This document shows, piece by piece, positions 9,026 to 30,246 of a DNA stretch of 64,000 nucleotides (the first letter of the stretch is position 1; the number at the start of each line of letters is the position of its first letter). Source of the DNA: Cohnella herbarum (GTDB taxonomy: Bacteria; Bacillota; Bacilli; Paenibacillales; Paenibacillaceae); the NCBI RefSeq assembly GCF_012849095.1, contig NZ_CP051680.1, forward strand, positions 7,606,001 through 7,670,000, given 5' to 3'. Made by a program: the position numbers and the translations under genes. The notes under the pieces were generated by a model. The model ran no database searches. It was not told where the DNA came from and saw nothing but the letters and a program-made list of their open reading frames with translations.

Positions 9026-9203
9026 GGAAAATGAAAGGTATAATTTTTGCACTCGTTTAGTTGATTCTGTGAGTCTGCGCAAGTAACCATCCATGATAAC
9101 CTAAGTCTCAGACAGCGGCCCATACCTCCAAGAGCAATGACACAGTTCGGGATGCTGCGGACAATGGAATCATGGATTTTCTATGACAAAGGGAGGCTTT
9201 TCA

Positions 9204-10295: not shown

Positions 10296-10322
10296 TGTCA
10301 TACCGATAGGATCGAAACAACG

Positions 10323-10352
10323 GAAGAGGGAGTACTCGGTATTCCCTCTTTC
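10323..10352 (+). promoter_or_regulatory. Intercistronic stem-loop after the binding-protein gene
   Basis: Arms AAGAGGGA and TCCCTCTT pair across an 11-base loop between the binding-protein and ATPase genes. There is no T-run, so it is more likely an mRNA stabiliser or partial attenuator than a full terminator. Confidence 0.6.
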
Positions 10353-10370
10353 GACAAGAGGAGACTGGCC

Positions 10371-11882: not shown

Positions 11883-11909
11883 TTTATCTCAAATGTGGGG
11901 TGAGTCGAA

Positions 11910-12884
11910 TTGAATGGGCATAACCGCTTGCATAAGCTTCAACATCATAGCTTATTCCCGATCGTTATCATTTTTCTGATCGTCGTCGGGGTGAACGCCG
12001 CCTTGCAACCGGGGTTTTTCACCTATGACGTCTTCCAATCCAATCTGTCCAGCTTTACCCCGCTCGTGCTCGCAAGCATGGCCCAAGCGGTCGTCGTTCT
12101 GGTCGGCGGAATCGATCTGTCCATCGGGATGGCGATTACGTTGTCGACGGTCATCATGGCCGCGACGATGAACGACTCTCCCTCCAGCGTCTTTATCGGA
12201 CTCGGACTCGCTATCGTCGCTACGTTCGCGGTCGGAGCGCTTAACGGGATTACGGTCGGTTACTTAAAGCTGCCGCCGATTATATCCACTTTCGCCGTAT
12301 CCTCGGTGTGTTACGGAGCGGCGCTGCTGATCATGCCTCAGCCGGGCGGGTATATCCCTTCGTTTTTTTACGAGACTTATCAAACGAGCATTGCATCGAT
12401 TTTACCGATTTCGTTATTGATCATTATCGTTGGCCTTGCGATCTGGGGACTTATCTCGCGAAGAAAAATCTACCGTTATATTTACGCCGTCGGAGGCAGC
12501 GAATCTGCCGCTTACGCGAACGGAATCAATACGAAGAAGGTGAAGCTGTATGCCTTCTTGATTAGCTGCGTTTTCATCGTTCTGACCGCGTTGGTCGTCG
12601 TTTCGCAGACCGCGACCGGCGATGCTAATATCGGCCGGGCGTATACGCTGAATTCGATAGCCGCCGTCGTTATCGGAGGAATCAGCCTTCAAGGCGGGAA
12701 AGGCAATCTGATCGGAGCGGTTCTAGGGGCTTTGATACTCGGGTTTATATCCAACATTATTTTTTTCGCGAACCTTTCCTCCTTTTACCAAGATTTGATT
12801 AAAGGCTTGATTATCATATTCGCGCTGACGCTGTCTATTCTTCCGACGCTTCGGAAGAAGGCGCTTGCCCAATCGGGAGGTTGA
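11910..12884 (+). CDS. RbsC-type sugar ABC transporter permease 1
   Basis: The 324-residue hydrophobic protein shows the BPD_transp_2 motif VLVGGIDLSIGMAITL and the C-terminal GGISLQGGKGNLIGAVLGA typical of RbsC permeases, with about 8-10 membrane helices. A TTG at 11910 is the only start well placed behind GGGGTGAG. Its stop overlaps the start region of the second permease, so the two are translationally coupled and probably form a heterodimer. Confidence 0.93.
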   Translation: MNGHNRLHKLQHHSLFPIVIIFLIVVGVNAALQPGFFTYDVFQSNLSSFTPLVLASMAQAVVVLVGGIDLSIGMAITLSTVIMAATMNDSPSSVFIGLGLAIVATFAVGALNGITVGYLKLPPIISTFAVSSVCYGAALLIMPQPGGYIPSFFYETYQTSIASILPISLLIIIVGLAIWGLISRRKIYRYIYAVGGSESAAYANGINTKKVKLYAFLISCVFIVLTALVVVSQTATGDANIGRAYTLNSIAAVVIGGISLQGGKGNLIGAVLGALILGFISNIIFFANLSSFYQDLIKGLIIIFALTLSILPTLRKKALAQSGG

Positions 12885-12886
12885 CC

Positions 12887-13885
12887 ATGAGCACGAGCCA
12901 ATTACGAACGAACGAGGCGCGCACGGCGGGTTTGACGTTGAGGAAGGTCAAGAGCCTAGGCAATCATAAGGTTCTGATCGCATATCTGCTTGCCCTATTG
13001 ATTTTCGTGGCGGGACAGATCATCTCTCCCGGTTTCGGCGAATTTTCTAATATAATGAATGTACTGAACATATCCGCGCTGCTGGGGTTTATCGCATTGG
13101 CGCAGATGTTGGTCGTGATGTCCGGCGGAGAAGGGATAGATCTATCCGTCGGCGCGATGGCGTCGCTAGGCGCCGTCATGTCTTCGCAGATCATCGGCGG
13201 TTTGGACGGAAACCTTCCTTTGGCCGTTATCGTCGTGTTGCTGATTGGATTTCTGATCGGCTGCGTCAGCGGGCTGGGAATTTCCTATTTCAAAGTTCCT
13301 CCTCTGGTCATGACGCTGGCGATGGCAAGCGTAATCCAGGGAGGAGCGCTCGTCTATACGAACGGACAACCGAAGGGGATGGCTTCTCCTTTACTGAAGG
13401 AACTTGGAACGGGCAGGACCGCGGGGATTCCCCATTTGGTTCTGTTGTGGATCGTGATCGCGGTGATCGTCGCCGTCTTCCTTCTCCGCACGAAATGGGG
13501 CAAAGTGCTGTACGGATTGGGTACCAATCAACTGACGACCGAGCTGTCCGGAGTGAGAACGAAGGTCGTGCGTACCGTCGTGTACGGAGCAAGCGGGGCG
13601 ATATCGGCGATCGGCGGCATGTTGCTGCTTAGCTATACGGGTACTGCTTTTCTCGATATCGGCGCGACGTATATGTTGCCGACGGTCATCGCGGTCGTGA
13701 TCGGAGGAATTTCCTTGGCGGGCGGATTGGGAAGTTATAACGGAACCGTTGCCGGGGCGATTTTGTTAACATCGTTGAGCAGCATTCTGATCACGATGAA
13801 CATTACCGAAGGCGGTCGGCAGATCGTTTACGGAGTTATATTGTTGCTCCTTCTTATTGCTTATGGTAGGCAGAAGATGAATTGA
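12887..13885 (+). CDS. RbsC-type sugar ABC transporter permease 2
   Basis: The 332-residue membrane protein is homologous to its neighbour (VVMSGGEGIDLSVGAMASLG, VIGGISLAGGLGSYNG). The ATG at 12887, with GGGAGG 6 bases upstream, is better than the TTG at 12881 that overlaps the previous stop. Two different permeases for one RbsA-type ATPase is a recurrent arrangement and differs from the single RbsC of the ribose system. Confidence 0.93.
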   Translation: MSTSQLRTNEARTAGLTLRKVKSLGNHKVLIAYLLALLIFVAGQIISPGFGEFSNIMNVLNISALLGFIALAQMLVVMSGGEGIDLSVGAMASLGAVMSSQIIGGLDGNLPLAVIVVLLIGFLIGCVSGLGISYFKVPPLVMTLAMASVIQGGALVYTNGQPKGMASPLLKELGTGRTAGIPHLVLLWIVIAVIVAVFLLRTKWGKVLYGLGTNQLTTELSGVRTKVVRTVVYGASGAISAIGGMLLLSYTGTAFLDIGATYMLPTVIAVVIGGISLAGGLGSYNGTVAGAILLTSLSSILITMNITEGGRQIVYGVILLLLLIAYGRQKMN

Positions 13886-13975: not shown

Positions 13976-14953
13976 ATGAGCCGATATGCAGCTAGTTGGG
14001 AGACGCAGGATGGGTTCGAGGTGATTTCGTTGACTGATGCGAGTAGCGATTCCGTTGCGGAGATTGTTCCCGGTGTCGGGAACAATCTGTATCGTTTCGA
14101 GAGCCGGGGACGGCAGGTACTTGTTCCGCCGGCAAGCATGTACGCGTTGAGGAACGAGAACAACGCGACTTTCATGTACGGTACGCCGATCCTGTTTCCG
14201 CCGAATCGGGTAATGGACGGGAGGATCGATTTTCGCGGCAGGGAATATCGGTTGCCGTTGAACGAGCCTCCGAATCGTCATCTTCATGGCGAGATATGCA
14301 GCAGGGCTTGGGAAGTTGTCGAAGCGGGCGCATCAGATGAGCAAGGCGCGTTCGTGACTAGCAGGTTTAGTTATGCTTCATATCCGGAACTGATGGCATA
14401 TTTCCCCCATCCGCTGACGTTTACGGTGACCGTTCGACTATGCGACGGGCGGTTGGAGATGAGCGGTACGATCGTGAACGAGGGAGAGGACGAAGCTCCG
14501 TTCGCTTTCGGGTTGCATCCTTATTTCTCTGTGCCGTACGGTAGCGGAGAAGAGATCGAACTGCAGGTTCCGGCGGTAGCGGAGTGGCCGGTGACGAACG
14601 AAGCTTTCGTTACGGATAGGCCATCGGTTACGGATCTCAGCCGGGCTCTGAACGAGGGCGTTTCCATTGCCGATTATCCCGTGAACGGATGCTCTTTGTT
14701 ATCGCTAGCCGGAGGGGATAGCACCTGCCGCATGGTGGTGAAAGACCGGAATTATACGATAGCCTATCGATTCGGACCGGAGTTTCCCTACGTCGTCCTG
14801 TTTCGGCCGGATTGGGCGGCGGCGTATTCGTTGGAACCGTATACGTATGTGACGGATGCTTTTAATCTTCCATACGAGCACGAACTGACGGGCGCTCGGG
14901 GCATAGGCGCAGGCGAGACTTTCCGTTTTAGCACGGGTATGTGGGTGGAGTAG
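13976..14953 (+). CDS. Aldose 1-epimerase (GalM-like) family protein
   Basis: The 325-residue protein matches the galactose-mutarotase fold: NNATFMYGTPILFPPNRV, PLNEPPNRHLHGEICS with the conserved His, and FGLHPYFSVPYGS with the second His. It would interconvert anomers of an imported sugar in the cytoplasm. It is the last gene of the ABC operon, 90 bases after permease 2, with a purine-rich stretch before the ATG. Its presence argues that the imported substrate has an anomeric centre, unless the fold does another job here. Array 2 begins 5 bases past its stop. Confidence 0.85.
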   Translation: MSRYAASWETQDGFEVISLTDASSDSVAEIVPGVGNNLYRFESRGRQVLVPPASMYALRNENNATFMYGTPILFPPNRVMDGRIDFRGREYRLPLNEPPNRHLHGEICSRAWEVVEAGASDEQGAFVTSRFSYASYPELMAYFPHPLTFTVTVRLCDGRLEMSGTIVNEGEDEAPFAFGLHPYFSVPYGSGEEIELQVPAVAEWPVTNEAFVTDRPSVTDLSRALNEGVSIADYPVNGCSLLSLAGGDSTCRMVVKDRNYTIAYRFGPEFPYVVLFRPDWAAAYSLEPYTYVTDAFNLPYEHELTGARGIGAGETFRFSTGMWVE

Positions 14954-14957
14954 GAGA

Positions 14958-15404
14958 GGCTCGCCATTGTCGCGTTTTGCGACAATGAGCGTGAGCGAGA
15001 GAGAGAAGGGCCCACCATTGTCGCGTTTTGCGACAATGAGCGAGAGCGAGAGAGAGAAGGGCCCGCCATTGTCGCGTTTTGCGACAATGAGCGAGAGCGA
15101 GAGAGAGAAGGGCCTGTCATTGTCGCGTTTTGCGACAATGAGCATGAGCGAGAGTGTGAAAGGCCCGTCATTGTCGCATTTCGCGACAATGAGCGAGAGC
15201 GAGAGAGTGGAGGGCCCGCCATTGTCGCATTTTGCGACAATGAGCGTGAGCGAGAGAGAGAAGGGCCCGCCATTGTCGCGTTTTGCGACAATGAGCGTGA
15301 GCGAGAGAGAGAAGGGCCCGCCATTGTCGCGTTTTGCGACAATGAGCGAGAGCGAGAGCGAGAGAGTGAAGGGCCCGTCATTGTCGCGTTTTGCGACAAT
15401 GAGC
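14958..15404. repeat. Array 2: nine tandem copies of a 51-bp unit built on a 9-bp-stem hairpin
   Basis: Each unit contains the hairpin CATTGTCGC-GTTTT-GCGACAATG followed by a purine-rich linker (GAGCGAGAGCGAGAGAGAGA and GGGCCC). Hairpins start at about 14965, 15016, 15067, 15118, 15169, 15220, 15271, 15322 and 15379: the spacing is 51 bases seven times and then 57. Stem bases are almost invariant, and one copy keeps pairing potential through a loop-side change. Both strands are open because 51 is divisible by three; there is no ribosome site, so I do not call a gene. Confidence 0.92.
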
Positions 15405-15498: not shown

Positions 15499-16195
15499 GC
15501 GCCTATAGTCGGTTTTTCCGACTATAGGCGCGGGATCAGCGAGTTAGTGTGTCTCATAGTCGGTTTTTCCGACTATAGGCGCGGAGTCAGCGAGTTAGTG
15601 TGTCTCATAGTCGGTTTTTCCGACTATAAGCGCGGGATCAGCGAATTAGTGTGGCTCATAGTCGGTTTTTCCGACTATAGGCGCGGAGTCAGCGAGTTAG
15701 TGTGGCTCATAGTCGGTTTTTCCGACTATAGGGATCAGCGAGTTAGTGTGGCTCATAGTCGGTTTTTCCGACGATAGGCGCGGAGTCAGCGAGTTAGTGT
15801 GGCTCATAGTCGGTTTTTCCGACTATAGGCGCGGGATCAGCAAGATAGTGTGTCTCATAGTCGGTTTTTCCGACTATAGGCGCTGGATTGGCGAGTTAGT
15901 GTGGCTCATAGTCGGTTTTTCCGACTATAGGCGCGGAGTCAGCGAGTTAGTGTGTCTCATAGTCGGTTTTTCCGACTATAGGTGCGGGATCAGCGAGCAA
16001 GTGTGGCTCATAGTCGGATTTTCCGACTATAAGCGCAAGATTTGCGAGTTAGTGTGTCTCATAGTCGGATTTTCCGACTTTAAGCGCAAGATTTGCGAGT
16101 TAGTGTGGCTCATAGTCGGTTTTTTCGACTATAAGCGCTGGATTGGCGAGTTAGTGTGGCTCATAGTCGGTTTTTCCGACTATAAGCGAGAGAGC
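15499..16195. repeat. Array 3: fourteen tandem copies of a different 51-bp hairpin unit
   Basis: The unit core is ATAGTCGG-TTTTT-CCGACTAT (8-bp stem, 10 bp in the first copy) with a linker like GCGCGGAGTCAGCGAGTTAG. Copies start near 15504, 15555, 15606, 15657, 15708, 15754, 15805, 15856, 15907, 15958, 16009, 16060, 16111 and 16162. Every step is 51 bases except one of 46, which breaks any reading frame. The unit is unrelated in sequence to arrays 1 and 2 but has the same length and the same T-rich loop design. Confidence 0.92.
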
Positions 16196-16356
16196 GGGGG
16201 AGTTAGTATGGTTATCCATCAGCAACCGTCAAAAGTAAGCGCTTCAACAGGTATAAAAAACACTCCTAAGAAGTTGATTTTATGGGTCGGATTAGAGGTC
16301 GCGGAATTTTATGATGAATACATAACAACGGCTTGGCTGAAGAGGAGGAACAACGA

Positions 16357-17460
16357 TTGAGCGCAATTGACTTGAACTTGAACATCGAACCGGTAATGCC
16401 TAAGCGCAAAGATTACCGGATCGGCTGCATCGGTTCCGGATTCATCATGCGGGATTGCCACTTGGTCGCATACAAGGATGCGGGCTTTAATCCCGTTGCG
16501 ATTGCGTCGCGTACTTACGCGAACGCGAAGGCGGTTGCCGAACTGCGGGGAATCCCGAAGGTACACGAGAAGTGGGAACAGTTGGTCCAAGATCCCGAGA
16601 TCGAGATTCTCGACATCGCGGTTCCCCCGGATCGTCAACTCGAAGTCGTGAGGTTGGCCGTCAAGCAGCCGCATATCAAAGGCATTCTGTGTCAGAAGCC
16701 GCTGGCTATGAACTCGCAGGAAGCGCGGGAGATCGTCGAGCTCTGCGAAGCCGCGGGCATTAAAATCGGAGTCAACTCGAATATGCGCTACGATCAATCG
16801 ATCCGGGCGCTCAAAACGGTGCTCGATCGCGGTTATCTCGGAGAACCCGTGCTGGCGACGATCGAAATGCGGGCGATCCCGCATTGGCAGGATTTCCTTC
16901 ATCAATACGAGAGAATCGAAATTCTAAACATGGGTATCCACCATATCGACGCGTTCCGATACCTGTTCGGCGATCCGGAGAAAGTTACGGCGGTCGCGCG
17001 CAAGGATCCGAGAACGAAATTCAAGCACATCGACGGGATTTCCCAATATACGTTCCAATACGGCAACGAACTCATGGCTACGAGTCTGGATGACGTCTGG
17101 GCTTGGCCGGGAGAAGGCGCCGAGAAGGACATCTATATCAAATGGAGAGTCGTCGGACTGGACGGAATGGCCCAAGGGACGATCGGATGGCCTCATCCGG
17201 AAAGAACGCCGAGCACGCTCGAATTCACGACGAAGCAGTCTCCGAACCAATGGTTCCGGCCGAAGTGGGATACGGTGTGGTTTCCGGATGCTTTCCAAGG
17301 GACGATGGCGCAGTTGCTTCGCGCGGTGGAGACGGACAGCGAGCCGGAAATCGGCGGCAGGGATAACCTGAATACGATGGCCGCCGTAGACGCTTGTTAC
17401 AAATCCATTGCCGAAAGCCGGACGATATCCTTCAGCGAAGTTACGCAATCCAACTTATAG
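16357..17460 (+). CDS. Gfo/Idh/MocA-family NAD(P)-dependent dehydrogenase
   Basis: The TTG at 16357 follows AGAGGAGG by 8 bases; the upstream TTG at 16333 precedes that ribosome site and is not used. The product of 367 residues has an N-terminal Rossmann fold (RIGCIGSGFIMRDCHL), the family lysine motif (GILCQKPLAM, Lys about 107) and a C-terminal alpha/beta domain with the NMGIHHIDAFRYLFGDP histidines. Such enzymes oxidise a hydroxyl of sugars, inositols or inosamines (MocA, IolG). It leads the operon that contains the MocDEF-like oxygenase, and array 3 ends 160 bases before it. Confidence 0.92.
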   Translation: MSAIDLNLNIEPVMPKRKDYRIGCIGSGFIMRDCHLVAYKDAGFNPVAIASRTYANAKAVAELRGIPKVHEKWEQLVQDPEIEILDIAVPPDRQLEVVRLAVKQPHIKGILCQKPLAMNSQEAREIVELCEAAGIKIGVNSNMRYDQSIRALKTVLDRGYLGEPVLATIEMRAIPHWQDFLHQYERIEILNMGIHHIDAFRYLFGDPEKVTAVARKDPRTKFKHIDGISQYTFQYGNELMATSLDDVWAWPGEGAEKDIYIKWRVVGLDGMAQGTIGWPHPERTPSTLEFTTKQSPNQWFRPKWDTVWFPDAFQGTMAQLLRAVETDSEPEIGGRDNLNTMAAVDACYKSIAESRTISFSEVTQSNL

Positions 17461-17552
17461 TGCGAGTTCAAAAAGTTATGTTTTCAGCACCGAGAAGGTT
17501 GGAAGATCCGGCCTTTTATAGACTAAAACCATTTTAAGGGAGGAAATTGCTC

Positions 17553-18455
17553 ATGATCTCAGTAGGTATTTTTAACGGATATTATCCTTACTCGCTAGCG
17601 GAATCGATTTCCAGAATCAAAAAAGACGGATTTAACTGCGTTCAATTGGACCTTGCTTTCAAAGATATGGACGTTTCCCCGGATAACCTGACGCGCGACA
17701 AAGCGCACATGATCCGCGATGCGTTTCGTGACGCGAATTTACCTATCGTCTGTATTTCCGGTTACACGAATATCATTCATCCGGATGCTAAGAAACGCGA
17801 ACAGAACGTAAACGGGCTTAAAAACCTGCTAAAATACGCTCGCGATCTGGGGAGTCCTTATGTCATCAGCGAAACGGGTACTTACAACACGGATAGCGAC
17901 TGGGTATGGGATCCGAAAAACGGCACGGAGGAAGCTTACGAGGAAATCTGCAAGCAGCTCGAAGACCTTGCCAAATTCGCCTATGATCACGGCTCCGTGT
18001 TTTTGATAGAGAACTATGTCAATAACGTCATCGGTTCCGTGGATCATCTGACCCGTCTATTCTCCGACGTTAACCATCCGGGGCTTGGGTTGCTGATGGA
18101 TCCGACCAACTATTTCACGGACCACAACATTAATCACATCGATGACGAGCTTAATCGCATCTTTAACACGTTGGGCGATAGAATCAAAATTGCGCACGCC
18201 AAAGATTGCAAACCGGCGGAAGACACCTCGGAGAAACACGCCGCAATCGACGCGACGGAATCGCACACGTTCCGCGGAGCGGGAGCGGTAGAGCTTCCGG
18301 CACCGGGACTGGGCAATTTGAATTACGATCTGTATTTGCAAAGACTCGGCAAGCTGCACCCGAACATTCCTATCATTATCGAACATTTGGACGAGGCGGA
18401 CATTCCGCGCGCGAAAAAGTTCTTGGACGGTAAACTGAAGAAAAACGGAGTCTAA
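17553..18455 (+). CDS. Sugar phosphate isomerase/epimerase (xylose-isomerase-like TIM barrel)
   Basis: The ATG at 17553 has GGGAGGA 8 bases upstream. The 300-residue protein belongs to the AP-endonuclease-2 / IolE / IolO superfamily: GIFNGYYPYSLAESISRIKK, metal-binding residues in FLIENYVNNVIGS, LLMDPTNYFTDH, KIAHAKDC and IIIEHLDE. Relatives epimerise or dehydrate keto-sugars and keto-inositols (MocC, IolE, IolH, IolO). The position directly behind the Gfo/Idh/MocA gene suggests it acts on the keto product of that enzyme. Confidence 0.9.
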   Translation: MISVGIFNGYYPYSLAESISRIKKDGFNCVQLDLAFKDMDVSPDNLTRDKAHMIRDAFRDANLPIVCISGYTNIIHPDAKKREQNVNGLKNLLKYARDLGSPYVISETGTYNTDSDWVWDPKNGTEEAYEEICKQLEDLAKFAYDHGSVFLIENYVNNVIGSVDHLTRLFSDVNHPGLGLLMDPTNYFTDHNINHIDDELNRIFNTLGDRIKIAHAKDCKPAEDTSEKHAAIDATESHTFRGAGAVELPAPGLGNLNYDLYLQRLGKLHPNIPIIIEHLDEADIPRAKKFLDGKLKKNGV

Positions 18456-18490
18456 TCGAGCTTGATGGGTTAACATGCAAGCTTCGTCTA

Positions 18491-18522
18491 CAGGTAAGCG
18501 CAATCGCGATTGCGCTTATCTG
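18491..18522 (+). terminator. Long palindromic hairpin between isomerase and desaturase-like genes
   Basis: A 24-base perfect palindrome (18495-18518; half-site TAAGCGCAATCG) is extended by further pairs to CAGG/TCTG. It is followed by TTAGATATTTA rather than a clean T-run. It could be a partial terminator between 17553-18455 and 18556-19647, or an operator. Confidence 0.55.
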
Positions 18523-18555
18523 TTAGATATTTATACGAGCGGGGTGGATTAGAGC

Positions 18556-19647
18556 ATGGCGATCGTTGTGCAGAAGAGGGATTACAGCATTACGGGTCCG
18601 GAAAGCAAAAGGGCTCAGGAGAAAGGGCTGGCGACTGCGGAGTGGTACACGAGCCCGATTCCGCGCGCGAAGATGAAGGAACTCATGAAAAGAAGGAACG
18701 GTCCGGCCATTCGGGATACGATTATCTGGTTCGGCGGCCTTGCTGTACTGGGCTATCTCGCCTTCCTTTCCTGGGGCACTTGGTGGGCCATTCCGGCATT
18801 TCTCGCTTACGGCATCCTTTATGCGACGCCCGGAGATTCCCGCTGGCACGAGTGCGGACACGGTACGGCGTTTAAGACGCCCTGGATGAACGAGGTCATC
18901 TACCAGATCGCTTCCTTCATGGTACTGAGATCGGCGACTCCGTGGCGATGGAGCCACGCGCGCCATCATACCGATACGATTATCGTCGGTCGCGACCCGG
19001 AGATCATTACGGAGAGGCCTCCGGTATGGCGAATTCTCATGATGCAGATTTTCCACCTGTACGGCGGTCCGGTCGAGATCAAACGTTTTATTCTCCATAC
19101 GTTCGGCAAGTTGGAGTCGCAGGAGAAGGAATATATTCCGGAGTCTCAGCATAACAAGACGTTCTGGGAAGCGCGGGTATACTTGCTAATCATCTTGGCG
19201 ATCATCGGAGCCTGCGTCTACGCGGGAAGTATTTTGCCGGCGATGTTCATCTTCTTGCCTTCATTCTACGGAGGCATAATCGTCATTACTTTTGGCGTTA
19301 CGCAGCATCTTGGTTTATACGAGGATGTACTAGATCACAGATTGAATTCGCGGACGATCTACATGAACCGTCTCTGTCGTTTTCTCTATTGGAACATGAA
19401 CTACCACGTCGAGCATCATATGTTTCCAATGGTACCGTACCATGCGCTGGCTAAGCTGCATGCGGAGATGAAGGACGATTGTCCGGCGGCAAGGCCGGGA
19501 CTTTGGGCCGCATTGAAGGAGGTCGTCACGGCGTTGCGCAAGCAGAAGCACGATCCGGCGTACGTCGTCGTCAAACCGCTCCCGAGTACGGCGCGGCCAT
19601 ACATGTACGGGATCGAGCATGATCTGAACATCAAGGTCGAAGCGTAA
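18556..19647 (+). CDS. Membrane di-iron oxygenase of the fatty acid desaturase family (MocD-like)
   Basis: The 363-residue protein has membrane helices around 55-90 and 205-250 and the three histidine boxes of FA_desaturase/AlkB enzymes: H98-ECG-H102, H134-AR-HH138 and H284-VE-HH288, with an extra conserved NMNYH. These bind a di-iron centre for O2-dependent hydroxylation or desaturation. It is followed at once by a Rieske ferredoxin and a FAD ferredoxin reductase, an electron chain used by MocD (rhizopine O-demethylation) rather than by ordinary lipid desaturases. The surrounding genes are sugar-catabolic, so I infer hydroxylation of an O-methyl group (releasing formaldehyde). A lipid substrate cannot be excluded. 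Confidence 0.85.
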   Translation: MAIVVQKRDYSITGPESKRAQEKGLATAEWYTSPIPRAKMKELMKRRNGPAIRDTIIWFGGLAVLGYLAFLSWGTWWAIPAFLAYGILYATPGDSRWHECGHGTAFKTPWMNEVIYQIASFMVLRSATPWRWSHARHHTDTIIVGRDPEIITERPPVWRILMMQIFHLYGGPVEIKRFILHTFGKLESQEKEYIPESQHNKTFWEARVYLLIILAIIGACVYAGSILPAMFIFLPSFYGGIIVITFGVTQHLGLYEDVLDHRLNSRTIYMNRLCRFLYWNMNYHVEHHMFPMVPYHALAKLHAEMKDDCPAARPGLWAALKEVVTALRKQKHDPAYVVVKPLPSTARPYMYGIEHDLNIKVEA

Positions 19648-19737
19648 TTATAACAAGAGAGGCGAGAAGCAGCGAATTCGTATAATCCGTCATGTGATAT
19701 GTCTAATCAACTAGATTAATCGTAAGGAGTGAAGGTT

Positions 19738-20055
19738 ATGAGCAATGGAATATGGATCGAAGCTTGCGAAGTGGACGATATCGAGGTTGAAGACGTCATT
19801 CGGTTTGACCATGAAGACCGGACGTTCGCCATCTATCGTACGGAAAAGGGAGATTTTTTCGCTTCCGACGGGTATTGCACGCATGAAAAGTTCCATCTGT
19901 CCAACGGATTGGTTATGGGTAACTTGATTGAATGCCCGAAACATAACGGACGCTTCGACATTCCGACGGGTCAGGCCAAGAGAGCGCCGGTATGCGTGGA
20001 TCTGAAAACCTATCCCGTGAAAATCGAAGACGATAAAGTATTTATCCAGATTTGA
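19738..20055 (+). CDS. Rieske-type [2Fe-2S] ferredoxin (MocE-like)
   Basis: The ATG at 19738 lies 9 bases behind AAGGAG; the GTG at 19729 is too close to it. The 105-residue soluble protein is a bare Rieske domain with C47-T-H49 and C66-PK-H69 as cluster ligands (YCTHEKF, LIECPKHNGRFD). This is the single-domain form that shuttles electrons from a reductase to an oxygenase. It sits between the di-iron oxygenase and the reductase, which together form a complete three-part monooxygenase. Confidence 0.93.
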   Translation: MSNGIWIEACEVDDIEVEDVIRFDHEDRTFAIYRTEKGDFFASDGYCTHEKFHLSNGLVMGNLIECPKHNGRFDIPTGQAKRAPVCVDLKTYPVKIEDDKVFIQI

Positions 20056-20075
20056 TGTCGAAGGAGCACTCGGAT

Positions 20076-21317
20076 ATGAAGGACTACGGAATGGTTATCG
20101 TTGGGGCTGGCGAAGCGGGTGCGCGCGCGGCGGTAGAGCTTCGGACGCAAGGCTGGACGGGCGCGATTACGATGATCGGCAACGAGGGACGGCATCCTTA
20201 CGAACGCCCTCCCCTTTCCAAGCATCAGCTGGTAGACGCAGCCGAACCGGTTCCTATTACGATCCTCGATAGCAATAGATTAATAGAACAGAACATCGGT
20301 TTTCATACGAACGATGTCGCTGTTCGGATTAACCGGCAAGTCCATACCGTCGAGCTAGCTAGCGGAATTCAATTACCCTACGAGAGATTGCTGCTTGCAA
20401 CGGGGGCTAATCCAAGAAAACTATCCGTCCAGGGGAATGCCGCGAAGGAGATGCTATACCTTCGCACGTTCGCGGATGCGATTCGAATTCGGGAACGGAT
20501 TCAGCCCGGCCAAAGAGTTGCGGTTATCGGCGGAGGGTTTATCGGTTTGGAAGTCGCCGCCAGCGCGGTAAAGAAAAGCTGCGAAGTTACGCTCGTGGAA
20601 GTGGCGCCTCGCATTCTGATGCGCGGCGTTCCCGAGGAAATCGCCAAGCTGGTAGAACAAAGGCATCGCGAAGCGGGAGTCCGCTTTAAGATCGGCGTCA
20701 TGATCGAGAGCGTCGACAAGGAAGTCGGCGGAGAGTACGTCATCTCGTTGGCTGACGGATCGGCCGTTCGCTGCGATGCGATCGTGACGGGGATCGGGGC
20801 CATACCCGCAACTGCGTTGGCAGTTGTCAGCGAATTAGAAATCGAGAACGGCGTGAAGGTAAACGAGATGCTGGCAACGAGCGATCCGGATATTTACGCC
20901 GCGGGCGATTGCTGTTCTTTCCCGCATCCGCTCTATGGCGGTAAAAGAATTCGGTTGGAAGCGTGGCGCAACGCTCAGGATCAAGGAACGCACGTCGCGG
21001 GCAATATGCTGGGCGCGGCGGTACCTTATTCGGCATTGCCTTGGTTCTGGTCGGATCAGTACGACCAAACCTTGCAAGTAGCGGGATTGTCCGAGCCTAC
21101 GGATACGACCGTTATGCGGAATTTGGGCGACGCGGGCAAGCTCTTCTTCCACGTAGCGGGCGACGGAAGATTGGTCTCCGTGAGCGCGATGGGTCCGACG
21201 GGAGCATTCGCGAAGGAATTCCGATTGGCGGAATTGCTCATCGAGAAACAAGCGAGGCCGGAGTTGGAAGCGCTAGCGAATCCGGGAAGAAAATTGAAGG
21301 AATTATTGCGCGCGTGA
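20076..21317 (+). CDS. FAD/NAD(P)H-dependent ferredoxin reductase (MocF-like)
   Basis: I start at the ATG 20076, with AAGGAG 9 bases upstream; the frame is open from 20052 but that TTG overlaps the Rieske stop region. The 413-residue protein has an N-terminal FAD-binding GAGEAG motif, an NAD-binding GGGFIGLEVAA (about 148-158), the ATG motif LLATGANPR and a C-terminal FAD motif DIYAAGDCC. It fits the putidaredoxin-reductase/rhodocoxin-reductase type with a C-terminal reductase_C domain. It passes electrons from NAD(P)H to the Rieske protein. Confidence 0.93.
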   Translation: MKDYGMVIVGAGEAGARAAVELRTQGWTGAITMIGNEGRHPYERPPLSKHQLVDAAEPVPITILDSNRLIEQNIGFHTNDVAVRINRQVHTVELASGIQLPYERLLLATGANPRKLSVQGNAAKEMLYLRTFADAIRIRERIQPGQRVAVIGGGFIGLEVAASAVKKSCEVTLVEVAPRILMRGVPEEIAKLVEQRHREAGVRFKIGVMIESVDKEVGGEYVISLADGSAVRCDAIVTGIGAIPATALAVVSELEIENGVKVNEMLATSDPDIYAAGDCCSFPHPLYGGKRIRLEAWRNAQDQGTHVAGNMLGAAVPYSALPWFWSDQYDQTLQVAGLSEPTDTTVMRNLGDAGKLFFHVAGDGRLVSVSAMGPTGAFAKEFRLAELLIEKQARPELEALANPGRKLKELLRA

Positions 21318-21347
21318 TTAGAGGGATAGAGCGAAGGGGATGAAACC

Positions 21348-22334
21348 ATGAAATATAATGCGTTCGGCAAATTAGGAACCGAAGTGTCCCGGCTGGGATT
21401 CGGCGCGATGGGACTTGGCGGCGTATTCGGACAATACGACGAAAAAGATTTGGTTCGCTCGGTACTTCATAGCTTGGAGAAGGGCGTTAATTTTATCGAT
21501 ACCGCACGTAACTACGGCGAGTCGGAGCGTATTCTCGGCTTGGCGCTGCGCGAATGGAAGGGCAAGAAGCCCTTCATCGCGTCGAAGATTCAATCGAGGG
21601 GCCCGGGCAATCTAGGTTGGGGTAAACCGATCCCCGTGGAGTCGGCTTTTCCGCAAGGCTGGCTGAGAGAAAGTACGGAAACCTCGCTTCGGCTGCTCGG
21701 CGTCGACACGATCGACCTCATTCAACTCCACCAATATTGGCCGCAATGGGATCGCGTAGATTATTGGATGGATGAGTTGCTGCAACTGAAGCAGGAAGGC
21801 AAAATCCGCGGCATCGGCGTATCTCTGCCCGATCAGCGGCATGATATCGTGCTGCCGCTCGTGCAAAGCGGAAAGATCGATTCCGTGCAGACGGTATTTC
21901 ATATTTTCGACCCTTTGCCTCTGGATTGCCTTATCCCGATCTGTCAGGAAAACAACGTCGCGGTAATCGCGAGATGTATATTGGATGAAGGCGGATTGAC
22001 GGGATTTCTGAAAGAAGATACCCTATTCGAAGAAGGAGATTTCCGCAAATCTTATTTCGATTACATGCCTCGCGGCTTGTATATCGAACGCGTCAACCGG
22101 TTGAAGGAAGCTTTCGTCCCTAAATACGCAGAGAGCCTTGCGGAGTTGGCCATTAAATTCGTGCTGCATCATCCGGGGGTTACCGCGGCCATAAGCTCTA
22201 TGCACGTCCCGCGGTATGCGGACGAGAATATCGCGGCCGTCGATCGCGAGCCGTTGCCCGAGGAAGCGTTCGAAGAAATCCGACAACATCACAGATGGGT
22301 GAGAAATTTCTATGAAACCAAGTACTGGCAGTAA
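21348..22334 (+). CDS. Aldo/keto reductase
   Basis: The 328-residue protein has the AKR TIM-barrel signature: FGAMGLGGVFG, catalytic Asp and Tyr in FIDTARNYGESE, Lys in FIASKIQ and His in IDLIQLHQYW. AAGGGGA precedes the ATG. The family oxidises or reduces aldehydes, ketones and sugars with NADP(H). Its 3' end overlaps the creatininase-family gene by 23 bases, so the two are translationally coupled and probably act in sequence. Confidence 0.9.
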   Translation: MKYNAFGKLGTEVSRLGFGAMGLGGVFGQYDEKDLVRSVLHSLEKGVNFIDTARNYGESERILGLALREWKGKKPFIASKIQSRGPGNLGWGKPIPVESAFPQGWLRESTETSLRLLGVDTIDLIQLHQYWPQWDRVDYWMDELLQLKQEGKIRGIGVSLPDQRHDIVLPLVQSGKIDSVQTVFHIFDPLPLDCLIPICQENNVAVIARCILDEGGLTGFLKEDTLFEEGDFRKSYFDYMPRGLYIERVNRLKEAFVPKYAESLAELAIKFVLHHPGVTAAISSMHVPRYADENIAAVDREPLPEEAFEEIRQHHRWVRNFYETKYWQ

Positions 22335-23220
22335 AACGCTGTGGTCCGAGCTCTTGCCGTACGAGTTCAATAGACGATTGGACGAATGTCCGATCGTCTA
22401 TTTGCCGCTCGGACTGTGCGAGCCTCACGGACAAGTCAGCGCGTTCGGCCTCGATACGCTCAAAGCGGAATGGCTCTGCTTGCGAACGGCCGAGAGGGTC
22501 GGCGGCGTAGTCGCGCCATCCATGGGTTATCATATCCACGAAGCCGGTTATCATGCGAGATGGCTTGAGGATGAAGTCGGAGAAGAAAATCCGCGTATGA
22601 CCGGAGTGCCTCCCTCAATCTTCCTTCAACTGTTCCTGTATCAATTGAGAACGTTCGTAAATGCGGGATTTCGCAAGATCGTAGTCCTGTCCGGACATAG
22701 CGGGGGAAACCAATTTGATTTGCGGCAGGTTGCCGATCTCTTCATGAATCGTTTTTCGGCCGTCGAGGTATGGGTACGCAGCGATCCTGAACTCGTGGAA
22801 GGTCTTTACGAAGGAGATCATGCGGGGAAGTACGAAATCTCGCAGCTCATGTACATTCGGCCGGAACTAATAGAGATGGATAAGGCTACGTTAGCGGATC
22901 TGCAGGGATCCGGCGGACGACTGGCGCTTGGCGCGGACGCCGGTGAAGCTAGTCCGGAGCTGGGCAAGAAGATCATGGAAGCTTGTCTAGAGAGCATGGT
23001 CGAAGAGGCAACGCGGATGAAGTCGGAATCGCATTCGGCGGCGAAACCCGATACTGCAGCCTCTATTCCGAGAATCTCTTACGAAGATATTGAAGCGATA
23101 TGGAGCGAGGCCTCGGCGAATGCGGATAAGTGGGTTACGGCAAACCCATGGCCATCCCAGAAATCGGTATCGACGCTGTCCCAATGGAAGCCGTATGAAC
23201 GTTATGAAGCCGGTCGATGA
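22312..23220 (+). CDS. Creatininase-family metal-dependent hydrolase
   Basis: The 302-residue protein shows the creatininase metal site: Glu and His in PLGLCEPHG, Asp in AFGLDTL, His in VLSGHSGGN and Glu in GKYEISQLM. The family includes creatinine amidohydrolase, formamide hydrolases and, as I recall, the IolN ring-opening hydrolase of the Thermotoga inositol pathway, which acts on a diketo-inositol. Since this operon has dehydrogenases and an isomerase, a C-C or lactone ring-opening role on an oxidised inositol or sugar is a better guess than creatinine. The start overlaps the AKR gene. Confidence 0.85.
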   Translation: MKPSTGSKTLWSELLPYEFNRRLDECPIVYLPLGLCEPHGQVSAFGLDTLKAEWLCLRTAERVGGVVAPSMGYHIHEAGYHARWLEDEVGEENPRMTGVPPSIFLQLFLYQLRTFVNAGFRKIVVLSGHSGGNQFDLRQVADLFMNRFSAVEVWVRSDPELVEGLYEGDHAGKYEISQLMYIRPELIEMDKATLADLQGSGGRLALGADAGEASPELGKKIMEACLESMVEEATRMKSESHSAAKPDTAASIPRISYEDIEAIWSEASANADKWVTANPWPSQKSVSTLSQWKPYERYEAGR

Positions 23221-24115: not shown

Positions 24116-24880
24116 TCACTTCTGATACTCCTTCGGAGTGCATCCCGTCACTTGCTTGAACAGTCGGCTAAAGTAAAATTGGTCGGGGTAACCGACGCGT
24201 TCCGCCACTTCTTTAACCGATAACCCCGGATGATTGGCAAGCAAATATTTGGCCTCGTTGATGCGTAAGGAGATCAAATATTTGGATGGCGGTTCTCCCG
24301 TATGCTTGATAAAAATTTTACTCAAGTAGGATGGCGCGAAGTTGAATTGCCTGGAAATTTCCTCCAAGCTGATATCTCCGGTAAAATTTTCGCGCAAGTA
24401 TATCCGAACCCGTTCCACGATATCCTCGGATGAAACGGTTCCTTGCGGGCGGATTCCCTCGACGTTTTTCTTAATCTTCGTTTTCTCGTTCTCGATCGCG
24501 GCCTGTACCCGGGAGATCGCTTTCTGCAGCTCTCCGGATTTAATCGGTTTAAGCAAATACTCGCTCGCTTCGTAACGTACCGCTTGCCTGGCATACTCGA
24601 AATCCGCGTATCCGGTAGTGATGATCTTGCGAACGTGCGGATAATGGGAGTGCAGCGACTTGATCAATTCAAGCCCGTCCATGACCGGCATGCGGATATC
24701 CGTTACGATGAGGTCGGCGGAGTTGTCGCGAATGTATTGCAAGGCGCTTTTCCCGTCTTGAGCGGCGTAGACGACTTGCAGCCCGGAGTCGAAGCTTTCG
24801 ATTTTCTTGACCAGATTGTTGCGAATCAAATCCTCGTCCTCTGCTACGACGATTCGCATCGTAGGCTCAGCGTTCTTCAT
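24116..24880 (-). CDS. YesN-type AraC response regulator, short form (two-component system 2)
   Basis: The 254-residue protein has a receiver domain (VAEDEDLIRNN, Asp61 in VTDIRMPVMDG, LLKPIKS) joined by a short linker directly to an AraC HTH domain (APSYLSKIFIKHTGEPPS, VGYPDQFYFSRLFKQVTG). It lacks the middle domain of the regulators at 7397 and 40897. Its start lies inside the kinase gene (14-base overlap), and GAGGGG serves as ribosome site. The likely target is the divergent CUT1 operon at 27001. Confidence 0.93.
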   Translation of the reverse strand: MKNAEPTMRIVVAEDEDLIRNNLVKKIESFDSGLQVVYAAQDGKSALQYIRDNSADLIVTDIRMPVMDGLELIKSLHSHYPHVRKIITTGYADFEYARQAVRYEASEYLLKPIKSGELQKAISRVQAAIENEKTKIKKNVEGIRPQGTVSSEDIVERVRIYLRENFTGDISLEEISRQFNFAPSYLSKIFIKHTGEPPSKYLISLRINEAKYLLANHPGLSVKEVAERVGYPDQFYFSRLFKQVTGCTPKEYQK

Positions 24881-26759
24881 GTCGTTCCCCTCTTTCCATA
24901 GGTCCGCCGATCGTGATCTCCGCGCCTCCGTCCGGGAGATTCCGGAAGAGGAACACGGATTCCGAACCGTACGTCAGTCTCATGCGGATGAATATATTTA
25001 GCAATCCCATGCCGCCCAACTGCAGCACCGGGGTAACGTTAGTCAAGTAAGTTTCGTCGATCTGCTCGCGAAGTTTCCGTAAGCTCTCCGGACTGAAGCC
25101 CGGACCGTTGTCGGATACGGTGACCCGCCAAGCGTTATCCTCCGCGAAGCCGGAAATCCGGATATGCCAGGGGGGCTCTTGTCTTGTCGCGAACTTGAGC
25201 GAATTTTCGACCAGCGGCTGAACGACCAGCTTAGGGATCATGACCCGGGTTAACGGTTCGTCGATCTCGAACGAGTAAACGAGCTTCTTGCCATGGCGGA
25301 TTTCGTTGACCTCTAGATATTTGCGGGTATGCAAGATTTCCGTTTGCAGCTCGACAACCGACAGATCGGATGAAATATAACGCAAAATATCCGACATGTT
25401 TTCCGACATCGACACGATTTGCTCGTTCATGTTTTCTTCGGCCATGACGCTGATCGTCGCAAGCGTATTATACAGGAAATGAGGGTTCATCTGGGATTGC
25501 AGAGCAATTAGTCTGGACTGCACTTCCTGGGATTGGGACAAGAGAAGTTCGTCCATCGATTGGCGCAATCTCGAGCTCATGTTCAAGAACGCGTCGTGCA
25601 GCTGATCGAGCTCGTTAAGCCCGCTGTTCAGTTCCTGGGACGCGATTCGCCCGGAGCCGAGATCGTCCAAGCGAATATTCCGCACCGTGCGGAGAATTCT
25701 ATAAATCGGAAAAGTGATTTTCTTGGCCGCGACGAAAGACAGCAGCATCGCGAACAGCAGGATTCCGACGGCGACGAACAGCGTTTTGCGCGTAAAATCG
25801 GCCAAAGGGGCGAGCAGCTTCTTCTCGGATACGATGACGACCGTGTTCCAGCCGGTCAAATCCGAGCGGTGATTGGACAGTAGCTCCCGATCTCCGGTAA
25901 CTGGATTGCGGAAAGATTCATAAGCGCTCTCCGCCGAAGGTTGCCCTTCCCCTAGCTGACGAATATACGGATCGTATAGGCTGCGATCCGCTTTGAGCGG
26001 ATAGATGATCTGTCCGACGTCGTCGAATACGAGCACGTTTTCTTCGTAGGCCCGTTGCTTGACGAAGCTCAGTACGCTTTTGAAAATCCGATTATAGTAT
26101 TGCTTGACCTCGACAATTCCGATCGGAACGTTGTAGTTGTCGTAAAATTGCCGAAACAAGGAAAGAGAATACTGTTTTTCCCGCGACGAGATGAACTTGG
26201 ACATTTCCTCGTCTTCGACGGGAATGGTAATGTACTTTCCTTGGGTCGACATGACGGCTTGGAACCAGGGAGCGGTATTCGGATCGTAAGAGCGTTCCCC
26301 GTTGTCGAAGCCGTTGCCGTACACTTTGCTATTAAAGTCGTATAGGTATATTTGCTCCGCCGCGCGCGAAGGTCCCATTGCCGCCGTGAGGATTTCCGCG
26401 AGTTCCTTCGCGCTCTGAACGGAATTGGCGGACGCTCCCGGCAGTGTGACGGGCTGTTGCAAACCTTCGACCGGCTTTTGGGGCAGCTTCTCCAGATCGG
26501 TTAAGTATTTCCGAAATTGATTTTTGACAAGATTGGAGTACATAACGTTAAGGGACACATCGTTCATTTTGCGGATTTCCGAATCGATTTGATCCTGCAT
26601 CGATTGTCCGACGTTCACGAGGGAATCCGTTGCGTTCTTTTTGATTAGTCCCGACACCCACAGGTATACCCACGCGACAAGAATCGTAAATACGACGATG
26701 ATGATCAACGTATAGGTCGAGAAGAGAATCGTTTGGATGTTTTTGAGTTTGCTCCACAT
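24867..26759 (-). CDS. YesM-type sensor histidine kinase (two-component system 2)
   Basis: The 630-residue protein has a membrane helix at about 12-35, a large Cache sensor, a second helix near 325-348, HAMP, a His_kinase domain with QSQMNPHFLYNTL (His427) and an ATPase domain with VSDNGPGFSPESL and the GLLNIFIRM box. GGAGG precedes the ATG. It is divergent from the ABC operon at 27001, a usual place for a sensor of its substrate. Confidence 0.93.
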   Translation of the reverse strand: MWSKLKNIQTILFSTYTLIIIVVFTILVAWVYLWVSGLIKKNATDSLVNVGQSMQDQIDSEIRKMNDVSLNVMYSNLVKNQFRKYLTDLEKLPQKPVEGLQQPVTLPGASANSVQSAKELAEILTAAMGPSRAAEQIYLYDFNSKVYGNGFDNGERSYDPNTAPWFQAVMSTQGKYITIPVEDEEMSKFISSREKQYSLSLFRQFYDNYNVPIGIVEVKQYYNRIFKSVLSFVKQRAYEENVLVFDDVGQIIYPLKADRSLYDPYIRQLGEGQPSAESAYESFRNPVTGDRELLSNHRSDLTGWNTVVIVSEKKLLAPLADFTRKTLFVAVGILLFAMLLSFVAAKKITFPIYRILRTVRNIRLDDLGSGRIASQELNSGLNELDQLHDAFLNMSSRLRQSMDELLLSQSQEVQSRLIALQSQMNPHFLYNTLATISVMAEENMNEQIVSMSENMSDILRYISSDLSVVELQTEILHTRKYLEVNEIRHGKKLVYSFEIDEPLTRVMIPKLVVQPLVENSLKFATRQEPPWHIRISGFAEDNAWRVTVSDNGPGFSPESLRKLREQIDETYLTNVTPVLQLGGMGLLNIFIRMRLTYGSESVFLFRNLPDGGAEITIGGPMERGERHEER

Positions 26760-26867
26760 GTTGTCCTCCGTATAGCCGAGATGGTACCGTTTTCACCTTC
26801 CCATTGTGTGCTCGGTTTCTTGATTTGTCAAAAGCGGTTTCGAGAGACGGTTAAATAAGTGCATAAA

Positions 26868-26914
26868 ATGTAACCGTTTTCTCCATGGTTTCCCCTTTGT
26901 TCCGAATCTATAAT
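26868..26914 (+). promoter_or_regulatory. Candidate promoter with upstream cre site for the CUT1 operon
   Basis: A sequence at 26868-26882 (ATGTAACCGTTTTCT) matches the degenerate cre consensus WTGNAANCGNWNNCW at every fixed position. A TATAAT lies at 26909-26914. No good -35 box is present, as expected for a promoter that needs the YesN activator. CcpA control is inferred. Confidence 0.5.
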
Positions 26915-27000
26915 GAGAACAGCCCGCTAGGAAGGCGAGGCGATCACATCGATGCTATGTAAACGGATTCATCGCTGTATACGACAAGGGGAGTGATCAT

Positions 27001-28374
27001 GTGAAAAGATTTACGGCAGTTTGTACTTCGATTATTTTGACATCCGCGCTGTTGACGGCATGCGGAGGTAACAACAATTCGGAACCGTCCGCGTCGCAAT
27101 CGGCAACGCCATCGGCTTCTCAGGGCGAATCGACGGAAACGGCGTCCAACTCGGGTGCCGCGAAGAAAGATATTACGCTGACTTATCTCGCCAGCCAAGA
27201 TTGGATCAAAGACGCGGAAATGGAATTGGCTAAGAAGTTCGAAGAGAAGACGGGAATCCACATCGACTATCAAATCATTCCCGCCGATCAATATTTCAAT
27301 GTGCTGAAAACGAAGCTGAACTCCGGCGAAGGTCCCGATCTGTTCGGCGGACAAAGCGGCAAGAGCGAAATCAGCCTGAACTATAACGCCCAGAAAAACG
27401 CGGTCGATCTTAGCGATCAAGAGTGGGTAAAGCGGGAAGATCCGCTTTCCGTCGACCAATTGACTTTGAACGGCAAAGTGTACGCGCAGACGATCTGGGA
27501 TACTTCGAACAGCTACGTTATCGTATACAACAAAAAAGTGTTCGCGGAGCAAGGCCTCAACGTCCCGACAACGTACGCGGAGTTCAAAGACGCGGCTCTG
27601 AAAATCCAAAAAGCCGGCATCACGCCGTTGTACGAGCCGGTAGCGGACGGCTGGCACCACGTCCTCTGGTTCGCCGAGCCGGGCCCGCAATACGACAAGC
27701 TGCAACCGAACTTATATGAAGATTTAAACGCGAACAAAACGAATTTCGAGACGAGCGCTCCGATGCTGACTTCGCTTACGCAGTTAAAAGAAATGTACGA
27801 TTTAGGTTTGTTCGGGGATAACGCGCTTTCCGATACGTTCGCGGATATGGCGAATCAGATGGCATCGGGCAAGTTCGCGATGGCGCTCATGACCCAGGAT
27901 CTCCCGCAACAGATCGAGAAGATCAATCCGGAGCTGAAAGCGACGGATTTCGGATTCTTCGTCATCCCGCTTGCGGACAACCAGATCTACTACGTCAATC
28001 CGGGCGGTCCGAGCAAGTTCGTCTACTCGGGCGGCAAGCATATCGAGGAAGCGAAACAGTATTTGGGCTTCTTGGCGGAGCCGGAAAACCTGCAATACCT
28101 TCTGGACAATACGCCGACGTTCTCTAATTTGAACTTCTCCGGACTGAAGGACAAATACAGCGACGAGCAGAAGAAGCTGCATGAGACGTATCCGGTGAAA
28201 GGCACGGACATCCAAGATTACGTGAACTACGTCAATCCGCAATGGATGGATATGGGGAAAGACATCGTCGGCATGTTCGGCGGCGCCGCGGAACCGGTCG
28301 ACGTGCTGAAGAGCATCGACAAACGCAGAAGCGACATGGCCAAGATCGCCAAGGACGAAGGCTGGAACAAGTAA
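27001..28374 (+). CDS. CUT1 sugar ABC transporter substrate-binding lipoprotein
   Basis: The GTG at 27001 is the start, with AAGGGGAG upstream; the preceding ATG is followed by a stop. The 457-residue protein has a lipobox (LLTACGG), a low-complexity linker and an extracellular solute-binding domain type 1 (AKKFEEKTGIHIDYQI, GPDLFGGQSG, SYVIVYNKKVFAEQGLNVP). CUT1 binding proteins carry oligosaccharides. It is the first gene of an operon with two permeases and a Gfo/Idh/MocA enzyme. No ATPase is encoded here, so a shared MsmX-type ATPase elsewhere is expected. Confidence 0.93.
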   Translation: MKRFTAVCTSIILTSALLTACGGNNNSEPSASQSATPSASQGESTETASNSGAAKKDITLTYLASQDWIKDAEMELAKKFEEKTGIHIDYQIIPADQYFNVLKTKLNSGEGPDLFGGQSGKSEISLNYNAQKNAVDLSDQEWVKREDPLSVDQLTLNGKVYAQTIWDTSNSYVIVYNKKVFAEQGLNVPTTYAEFKDAALKIQKAGITPLYEPVADGWHHVLWFAEPGPQYDKLQPNLYEDLNANKTNFETSAPMLTSLTQLKEMYDLGLFGDNALSDTFADMANQMASGKFAMALMTQDLPQQIEKINPELKATDFGFFVIPLADNQIYYVNPGGPSKFVYSGGKHIEEAKQYLGFLAEPENLQYLLDNTPTFSNLNFSGLKDKYSDEQKKLHETYPVKGTDIQDYVNYVNPQWMDMGKDIVGMFGGAAEPVDVLKSIDKRRSDMAKIAKDEGWNK

Positions 28375-28401
28375 CAAAAAAAATGAGCTGACTGAAACCG
28401 C

Positions 28402-28443
28402 TGACCCTGATCCCGAAAGATTGAAAAGACGGGATTAGGGTCA
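28402..28443 (+). promoter_or_regulatory. Intercistronic stem-loop after the CUT1 binding-protein gene
   Basis: Arms TGACCCTGATCCCG and CGGGATTAGGGTCA form a 14-bp stem with one G-T pair and a 14-base A-rich loop. There is no T-run. It lies between the binding protein and the first permease and probably limits read-through or stabilises the upstream mRNA. Confidence 0.7.
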
Positions 28444-28484
28444 CGCGTTAACGGATTCATTCTGCATTCGGAGTTGATGGCATC

Positions 28485-30178: not shown

Positions 30179-30246
30179 GAAGATTCGGGATTCGATAGGC
30201 AGCCGGCTGGGCTGGTTGGCGTAAGCACAGAGAGGATGACATATTC

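Follow-up and report, generated by a model that had tools for sequence, protein, structure and literature searches.

A MocDEF-family oxygenase system in a probable operon for O-methylated aldose use in Cohnella herbarum

Many sugars of plants and microbes are capped by methyl ethers, and little is known of the enzymes with which soil bacteria remove these groups. In a 64,000-nucleotide stretch of the Cohnella herbarum genome (contig NZ_CP051680.1, positions 7,606,001 to 7,670,000; hereafter the window), we found a three-component oxygenase system of the MocDEF family, predicted to act as an O-demethylase, within an operon that probably serves the uptake and degradation of an O-methylated aldose. 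The family membership of the components, their gene order, and their conserved linkage to neighboring genes can be read from the genomes, and we infer from there a reaction, a substrate, and an order of steps. If the reading is correct, a broad family of such trios would offer a testable route for methyl-sugar use, and the enzyme pairs that accompany it here would yield specific hypotheses on how the one-carbon (C1) unit and the sugar are handled, formaldehyde-free demethylation included.

The oxygenase, ferredoxin, and reductase belong to the MocDEF family

Reading frames and Pfam matches identify seven intact plus-strand genes at 16.3 to 23.2 kb, separated by short gaps or overlapping (Table 1): a Gfo/Idh/MocA dehydrogenase (GFO), a TIM-barrel protein (TIM), a di-iron oxygenase (MOCD), a Rieske ferredoxin (MOCE), a ferredoxin reductase (MOCF), an aldo/keto reductase (AKR), and a creatininase-family hydrolase (CRE). 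The original prediction, made from the sequence of this stretch, had placed a MocDEF-like trio between GFO and TIM on one side and AKR and CRE on the other; the intact frames, the Pfam families, and the MocE cut-off all bear this out. The later alternative starts in Table 1 (16357, 19738, and 20076) are the choices of that prediction. An aldose 1-epimerase family gene (EPIM) and an RbsABC-type transporter lie upstream.

Table 1. Features of the window (coordinates in nucleotides from its first letter)
Feature	Coordinates	Strand	Assignment and remarks
RbsABC-type sugar ABC transporter	9183-13885	+	Binding protein 9183-10295; ATPase 10371-11882; permeases 11910-12884 and 12881-13885
EPIM	13976-14953	+	Aldose 1-epimerase family; Pfam PF01263, 91.3 bits
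GFO	16333-17460	+	Gfo/Idh/MocA dehydrogenase; Pfam PF01408 (GFO_IDH_MocA); true start probably near 16357
TIM	17547-18455	+	Xylose-isomerase-like TIM barrel; Pfam PF01261 (AP_endonuc_2); partner of GFO
MOCD	18556-19647	+	FA-desaturase-type di-iron oxygenase, predicted O-demethylase; Pfam FA_desaturase, 136.5 bits
MOCE	19729-20055	+	MocE-family Rieske [2Fe-2S] ferredoxin; Pfam Rieske; start 19738 likely
MOCF	20052-21317	+	FAD/NAD(P)H ferredoxin reductase; Pfam PF07992 (Pyr_redox_2) and PF14759 (Reductase_C); start 20076 likely
AKR	21348-22334	+	Aldo/keto reductase; Pfam PF00248 (Aldo_ket_red)
CRE	22312-23220	+	Creatininase-family metal hydrolase; Pfam Creatininase; 23-base overlap with AKR
Neighboring block	24116-31332		Response regulator and histidine kinase (-); binding protein 27001-28374, permeases 28485-30178, second Gfo/Idh/MocA gene 30247-31332 (+)
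Xylan/aldouronate locus	32451-54362		GH52, two-component and transporter genes, GH10, GH8, GH67, UxuA, UxuB (mannonate oxidoreductase)

The three genes at the center are adjacent in the order by which we recognize a MocDEF-type system, namely FA-desaturase-type oxygenase, MocE-family ferredoxin, and FAD reductase. MOCE scores above the curated cut-off of the "MocE family" model TIGR02377 (152 versus 136.15 bits). Eight histidines of MOCD (H98, H102, H134, H137, H138, H284, H287, and H288) are invariant across 46 aligned MOCD rows, and at least two HxxHH boxes are present in 105/105 extracted sequences, a few outgroup desaturases being among them. For comparison we used the 80 best loci out of at least 584 relatives, so that counts over them are not a census; shared sequence reveals the same assembly twice in six pairs (L006/L155, L018/L165, L021/L163, L013/L164, L016/L166, and L004/L154). 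In 71 of the 80, drawn from many phyla, MOCD has a MOCE-like sequence (>50 bits) after it on the same strand and no more than 3 kb away, so the arrangement is not due to chance. The MOCD frame is 752 to 1,186 amino acids long in 17/80 loci (Bacteroidota, Verrucomicrobiota, and others). In the sole long frame that was scanned (L045 9974-12232, Wenyingzhuangia), one polypeptide carries FA_desaturase, Rieske, and FNR-type reductase domains, a fusion from which we conclude that the three parts act together; the fused gene adjoins that of an L-rhamnose symporter (RhaT), and a hydroxyproline-type gene set comes after.

Could a lipid desaturase or an alkane-type hydroxylase have been misread as a demethylase? 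We regard this as highly improbable. The best curated desaturase model for MOCD is DesB, with a score of 54.3 against a cut-off of 500 (DesA, 27.7 versus 500), and the Rieske ferredoxin pairing in the relatives, together with the sugar transport and sugar enzymes, speaks against it. In the tree, the outgroup of only four lipid-type rows on long branches falls on one side (98/100), and MOCD and the MocD of the rhizopine-type locus L146 lie within a large MocDEF-type group; the grouping with lipid desaturases that would have undone the original prediction is thus not seen, albeit with a small outgroup. On these scores and this separation, the lipid desaturase assignment was rejected. A PDB sequence search with MOCD returned a single match at E 0.56, and a MOCD profile returned none at E 0.01.

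The Cohnella trio accordingly is of the MocDEF family, and orthology predicts O-demethylase activity. NAD(P)H would supply electrons, the FAD reductase and then the MocE-type Rieske ferredoxin would relay them, and the membrane di-iron oxygenase would use them to hydroxylate a methyl ether of the sugar; the resulting hemiacetal would fall apart into a free hydroxyl and a C1 unit. EPIM, GFO, and TIM might then mutarotate, oxidize, and rearrange the sugar. AKR and CRE may belong to this demethylation-specific route as well, forming and then hydrolyzing a lactone of the methylated sugar or else handling the C1 part.

The nearest named relatives are from Cohnella (96%), and homologues also occur in Streptomyces and Pseudonocardia and across many other phyla. 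A locus labeled Mycobacterium (L030) was not counted as Gram-positive because it groups with Inquilinus in the tree, which makes the label doubtful. No description of a Gram-positive MocDEF trio was found among the literature matches listed, most subscription journals lying outside their coverage. The original prediction knew of no such counterpart either; for the literature listed this stands, but the homologues themselves are frequent, MOCD (E ≤1e-60) being present in 34/245 Paenibacillaceae genomes. In Gram-negative bacteria, mocDEF genes are known beyond rhizopine strains. According to the parts of the reports available to us, homologues occur in R. mesoamericanum (PMC5789663), and Pseudomonas syringae of woody hosts has mocDEF beside xylA2 and without mocCABR (PMC5132102). 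The P. syringae arrangement resembles that of Cohnella in having the trio beside a xylose-isomerase gene; it is unlike it in that the accessible text mentions no AKR-CRE pair, and the likeness is drawn from that description.

The Cohnella operon differs from rhizopine-type loci outside the trio

The model of rhizopine demethylation reportedly goes back to Bahar et al. in 1998. Loci L146 and L169 served as references for rhizopine-type moc loci, given mocA, mocB, mocE, and mocF in matching order and MocR proteins above the NF052281 cut-off (739 and 756.5 versus 650 bits). In a Rhizobium pisi assembly the expected rhizopine moc locus was not found: a single MocE-type gene exceeded the cut-off, and its neighbors were LacI-type and panB-like genes. 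The trio genes of Cohnella are arranged as in the rhizopine loci of Sinorhizobium meliloti and Rhizobium, with the oxygenase first, the MocE-family ferredoxin second, and the FAD reductase third. MOCD is 50% identical to the MocD of L146, the only reference from which MocD was compared, whereas MOCE (63%) and MOCF (49 to 52%) were compared with both. Unlike the rhizopine loci, Cohnella has a MOCD of a different subclade of the tree, AKR and CRE in place of panB-like and purU genes, and a TIM and a binding protein that do not match IolE and MocB of the references: blastp at E 0.01 paired neither TIM with the iolE products of L146 and L169 (loci in which MocC was not identified) nor the upstream RbsB-type protein or the 27.0-kb binding protein with their mocB products.

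These differences bear on the original prediction, which had proposed a complete pathway for an O-methylated inositol, inosamine, or sugar in a Paenibacillaceae, with MocA- and MocC-like partners and an RbsB-type transporter in the preceding operon. The trio and its catabolic operon are retained here, and the inositol and inosamine part is not; completeness is unproven, since the operon shows no evident path by which the demethylated product would enter central metabolism. GFO does belong to the same broad family as MocA, at 27% and 23% identity to the proteins of L146 and L169 over 50 to 53% of its length, which is no close kinship, but TIM reaches 25 bits with the IolE model (TIGR04379; cut-off, 290), where the IolE of L146 scores 394.7. 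The transporter is indeed present, but two 51-bp tandem-repeat arrays, at 14958-15404 (8.6 copies) and 15505-16188 (13.5 copies), stand between it and EPIM on the one hand and the operon on the other.

Degradation of an O-methyl inositol, an inosamine, or pinitol would agree with the homology of the trio to rhizopine MocDEF, with iolE or iolD beside some rhizobial relatives, and with the resemblance of AKR to IolS (71.6 bits). GFO falls below the cut-offs of IolG, levoglucosan dehydrogenase, and others, and the RbsB-type protein of the window below that of NF052284 (19.7 versus 420). The IolG and NF052284 failures say little about this substrate: the rhizopine-type MocA of L146 also misses IolG (182 versus 355), as do the mocB products of L146 and L169 NF052284 (39.8 and 45.4). 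It is the failure of TIM at IolE, the lack of any TIM or binding-protein match, and the weak GFO-MocA match that led us to reject inositol and inosamine, and since EPIM is an aldose epimerase relative and the Paenibacillaceae relatives carry aldose genes instead, we hold this kind of substrate to be very unlikely.

Relatives in Paenibacillaceae lie among sugar genes

An O-methylated aldose is a likelier substrate than an inositol because the Paenibacillaceae relatives of the operon lie among sugar genes. An EPIM relative (>120 bits) is found within 8 kb of MOCD in 14/80 loci. In L124 and L152 the genes run in the order binding protein, rhaM-family mutarotase, short-chain dehydrogenase (SDR), enolase-type dehydratase, alcohol dehydrogenase (ADH), fuconolactonase-like protein (scores of 190 to 231, under the cut-off of 400), EPIM, MOCD, MOCE, MOCF, AKR, and CRE; in L005 these enzymes recur, EPIM coming last. 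The rhaM match, of 44.7 bits, is from L124, the one locus scanned for it. Some of these neighbors (SDR and ADH) were named by similarity or by reading the sequence, and gene calls in the high-GC loci are mechanical. Elsewhere, an FAA-hydrolase gene and an SDR-like gene lie near L159, glycoside hydrolase (GH) genes of families GH78 and GH106 flank L161, and GH42 genes adjoin L018 and L167. We tentatively name a methylated 6-deoxy-L-hexose (fucose or rhamnose) as the likeliest substrate class, with 4-O-methylglucuronate next. GH29 genes were dropped as strong proof of fucose, being too common. Between a GH29 gene and EPIM, L008 (5120-6754) encodes a 545-residue protein with no Pfam match at E 1e-5, which is also present in L006 and L149. 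A literature search on the demethylation of methyl-rhamnose, methyl-fucose, or methylglucuronate brought nothing useful.

Evidence against a deoxyhexose comes from the window itself, which holds GH67, UxuA, and UxuB, and from L009 and L013, which hold a UxuA-like gene (35%); for this reason the aldose class is named with more confidence than the exact sugar. The trio might instead act on 4-O-methyl-D-glucuronate and deliver glucuronate to UxuA and UxuB; the methylated acid would come from glucuronoxylan through the GH67 alpha-glucuronidase, whose gene lies 32 kb away. GH52, GH10, GH8, GH67, UxuA, and mannonate oxidoreductase genes, all in the window at 32 to 54 kb, fit such a role, as does a genome of another genus (G115) with GH67 27.5 kb from MOCD. 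GH67 is also more frequent with MOCD (29/34 genomes) than without it (144/211; Fisher p 0.044), but this enrichment is weak, and we discarded the linkage as strong proof: 144 genomes carry GH67 without MOCD, and among seven genomes measured of the 29 with both, the two genes are close only in C. herbarum (G000) and G115, the other five having them at least 242 kb apart or on other contigs. With neither a UxuA nor a GH67 gene in the conserved operon core, we think 4-O-methylglucuronate an unlikely substrate. In the main text, as available, of a paper on Paenibacillus JDR-2 (PMC4765114), neither "demethyl" nor "desaturase" occurs.

AKR-CRE and TIM are linked to MOCD

New here is the conserved linkage of CRE and of TIM to MOCD in Paenibacillaceae. 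Counts of CRE, TIM, and GH29, and those from Streptomyces genomes, are lower bounds, because in some genomes not all first-look candidates were scored. At least 14 of the 245 genomes have CRE (E ≤1e-30), and in 12 of these it is no more than 4 kb from MOCD; TIM (E ≤1e-60) is present in at least 16 and lies within 5 kb of MOCD in all but one (15/16; the exception is G125). Seven genomes have both, seven CRE only, and nine TIM only, and in G078 the CRE module and the TIM module accompany two different MOCD copies. As for the two genomes with CRE and without MOCD, in G192 CRE is broken into two pieces, close to a GH29 gene, and in G039, which has no MOCD match at E 1e-60, an intact AKR-CRE pair (L171 2501-6832) lies near an unrelated gene of the PhyH family of iron/2-oxoglutarate dioxygenases, an AraC gene lying between.

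AKR (>200 bits) and CRE (>100 bits) occur together within 8 kb of MOCD in 11 of the 80 loci, and never one alone; these 11 include Acidisoma (L034 and L056) and three Streptomyces loci (L048, L057, and L063). The pair is retained in L005, L124, and L152 despite their separate SDR and fuconolactonase-like gene. A Streptomyces sample showed CRE in at least 1/295 genomes, that one being the genome from which the CRE locus came, so that it gives no independent test. Such close association with the oxygenase makes it likely that the pair takes part in demethylation.

Relatives of AKR in the PDB include general stress protein 69, IolS, and L-galactose dehydrogenases. By domain model and fold, CRE is within the creatininase superfamily; it scores 61.2 with the curated creatinine amidohydrolase model (cut-off, 235), and the residue opposite Glu122 of creatininase in the alignment is not Glu. 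The inositol route of Thermotoga, with IolN and IolO, likewise pairs a creatininase-family hydrolase with a TIM-barrel enzyme, but CRE and TIM fall below the respective cut-offs (44.7 versus 245 for IolN; 20 versus 300 for IolO), and this assignment was rejected.

Fate of the methyl group

Several alphaproteobacterial trios have C1 genes beside them: 12 of the 80 loci carry a panB-like gene no more than 8 kb from MOCD, never together with CRE, an exclusion of AKR-CRE that is confounded with taxonomy. By a score of 102 against a cut-off of 207.55, the panB-like protein of L146 is not PanB. Among five annotated records with the gene, purU is present in three (L146, L147, and L169; not in L123 and L170) and folD in one. 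The panB-like gene and purU directly follow mocE and mocF in L146 (10135-13498), L169 (10137-13507), and L147 (10096-14293, which also has folD). These purU and folD neighbors suggest a folate C1 outlet for rhizopine demethylation.

For AKR-CRE, two readings are available, either a sugar dehydrogenase and a lactonase acting on the methylated sugar or oxidation of the hemiacetal followed by hydrolysis of a formate ester. The creatininase fold family also holds deformylases. In the formate-ester version, AKR would oxidize the hemiacetal R-O-CH2OH to a formate ester, and CRE would cleave the ester to formate and free sugar with no release of formaldehyde; we consider this improbable. On this reading the pair would offer an alternative to the panB-like/FolD/PurU folate route beside rhizobial mocDEF. 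It agrees with the joint occurrence of AKR and CRE apart from panB-like genes, with the closeness of CRE to MOCD, with the AKR-CRE pair near a dioxygenase gene in G039, and with the retention of the pair in L005, L124, and L152.

A parallel exists in porphyran-degrading Flavobacteriia, where, according to the part of the report available, a P450 O-demethylase acts on 6-O-methyl-D-galactose and has a linked dehydrogenase and an esterase gene (PMC10033563). As proposed for Cohnella, this is an oxidative methyl-sugar demethylation that needs redox partners; it differs in using a heme P450 rather than a di-iron enzyme. The linked alcohol dehydrogenase was found there not to act in formaldehyde detoxification (PMC10033563), which weakens the formate-ester reading.

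Genomic surroundings

Orthologues of the RbsABC-type transporter lead the same cassette in Cohnella (L153 and L128) and Acidisoma (L034 and L056), and L153, from Cohnella mopanensis, has just a short gap at the place of the repeat arrays between EPIM and GFO. The regulator pair and the 27.0- to 30.2-kb transporter come after CRE in L003, L006, and L008, and this type of transporter sits before MOCD in L005 and L124. Regulators scanned or read in the window are of the AraC and two-component types. A promoter and terminator scan gave counts no higher than in shuffled sequence, and an Rfam search at gathering scores gave nothing informative. A second MOCD, 67% identical, lies 41 kb upstream in the 8.5-Mb genome, with MOCE and a further epimerase-like gene after it. 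A Mutator-family transposase gene occupies 3268-4449, close to where the window begins.

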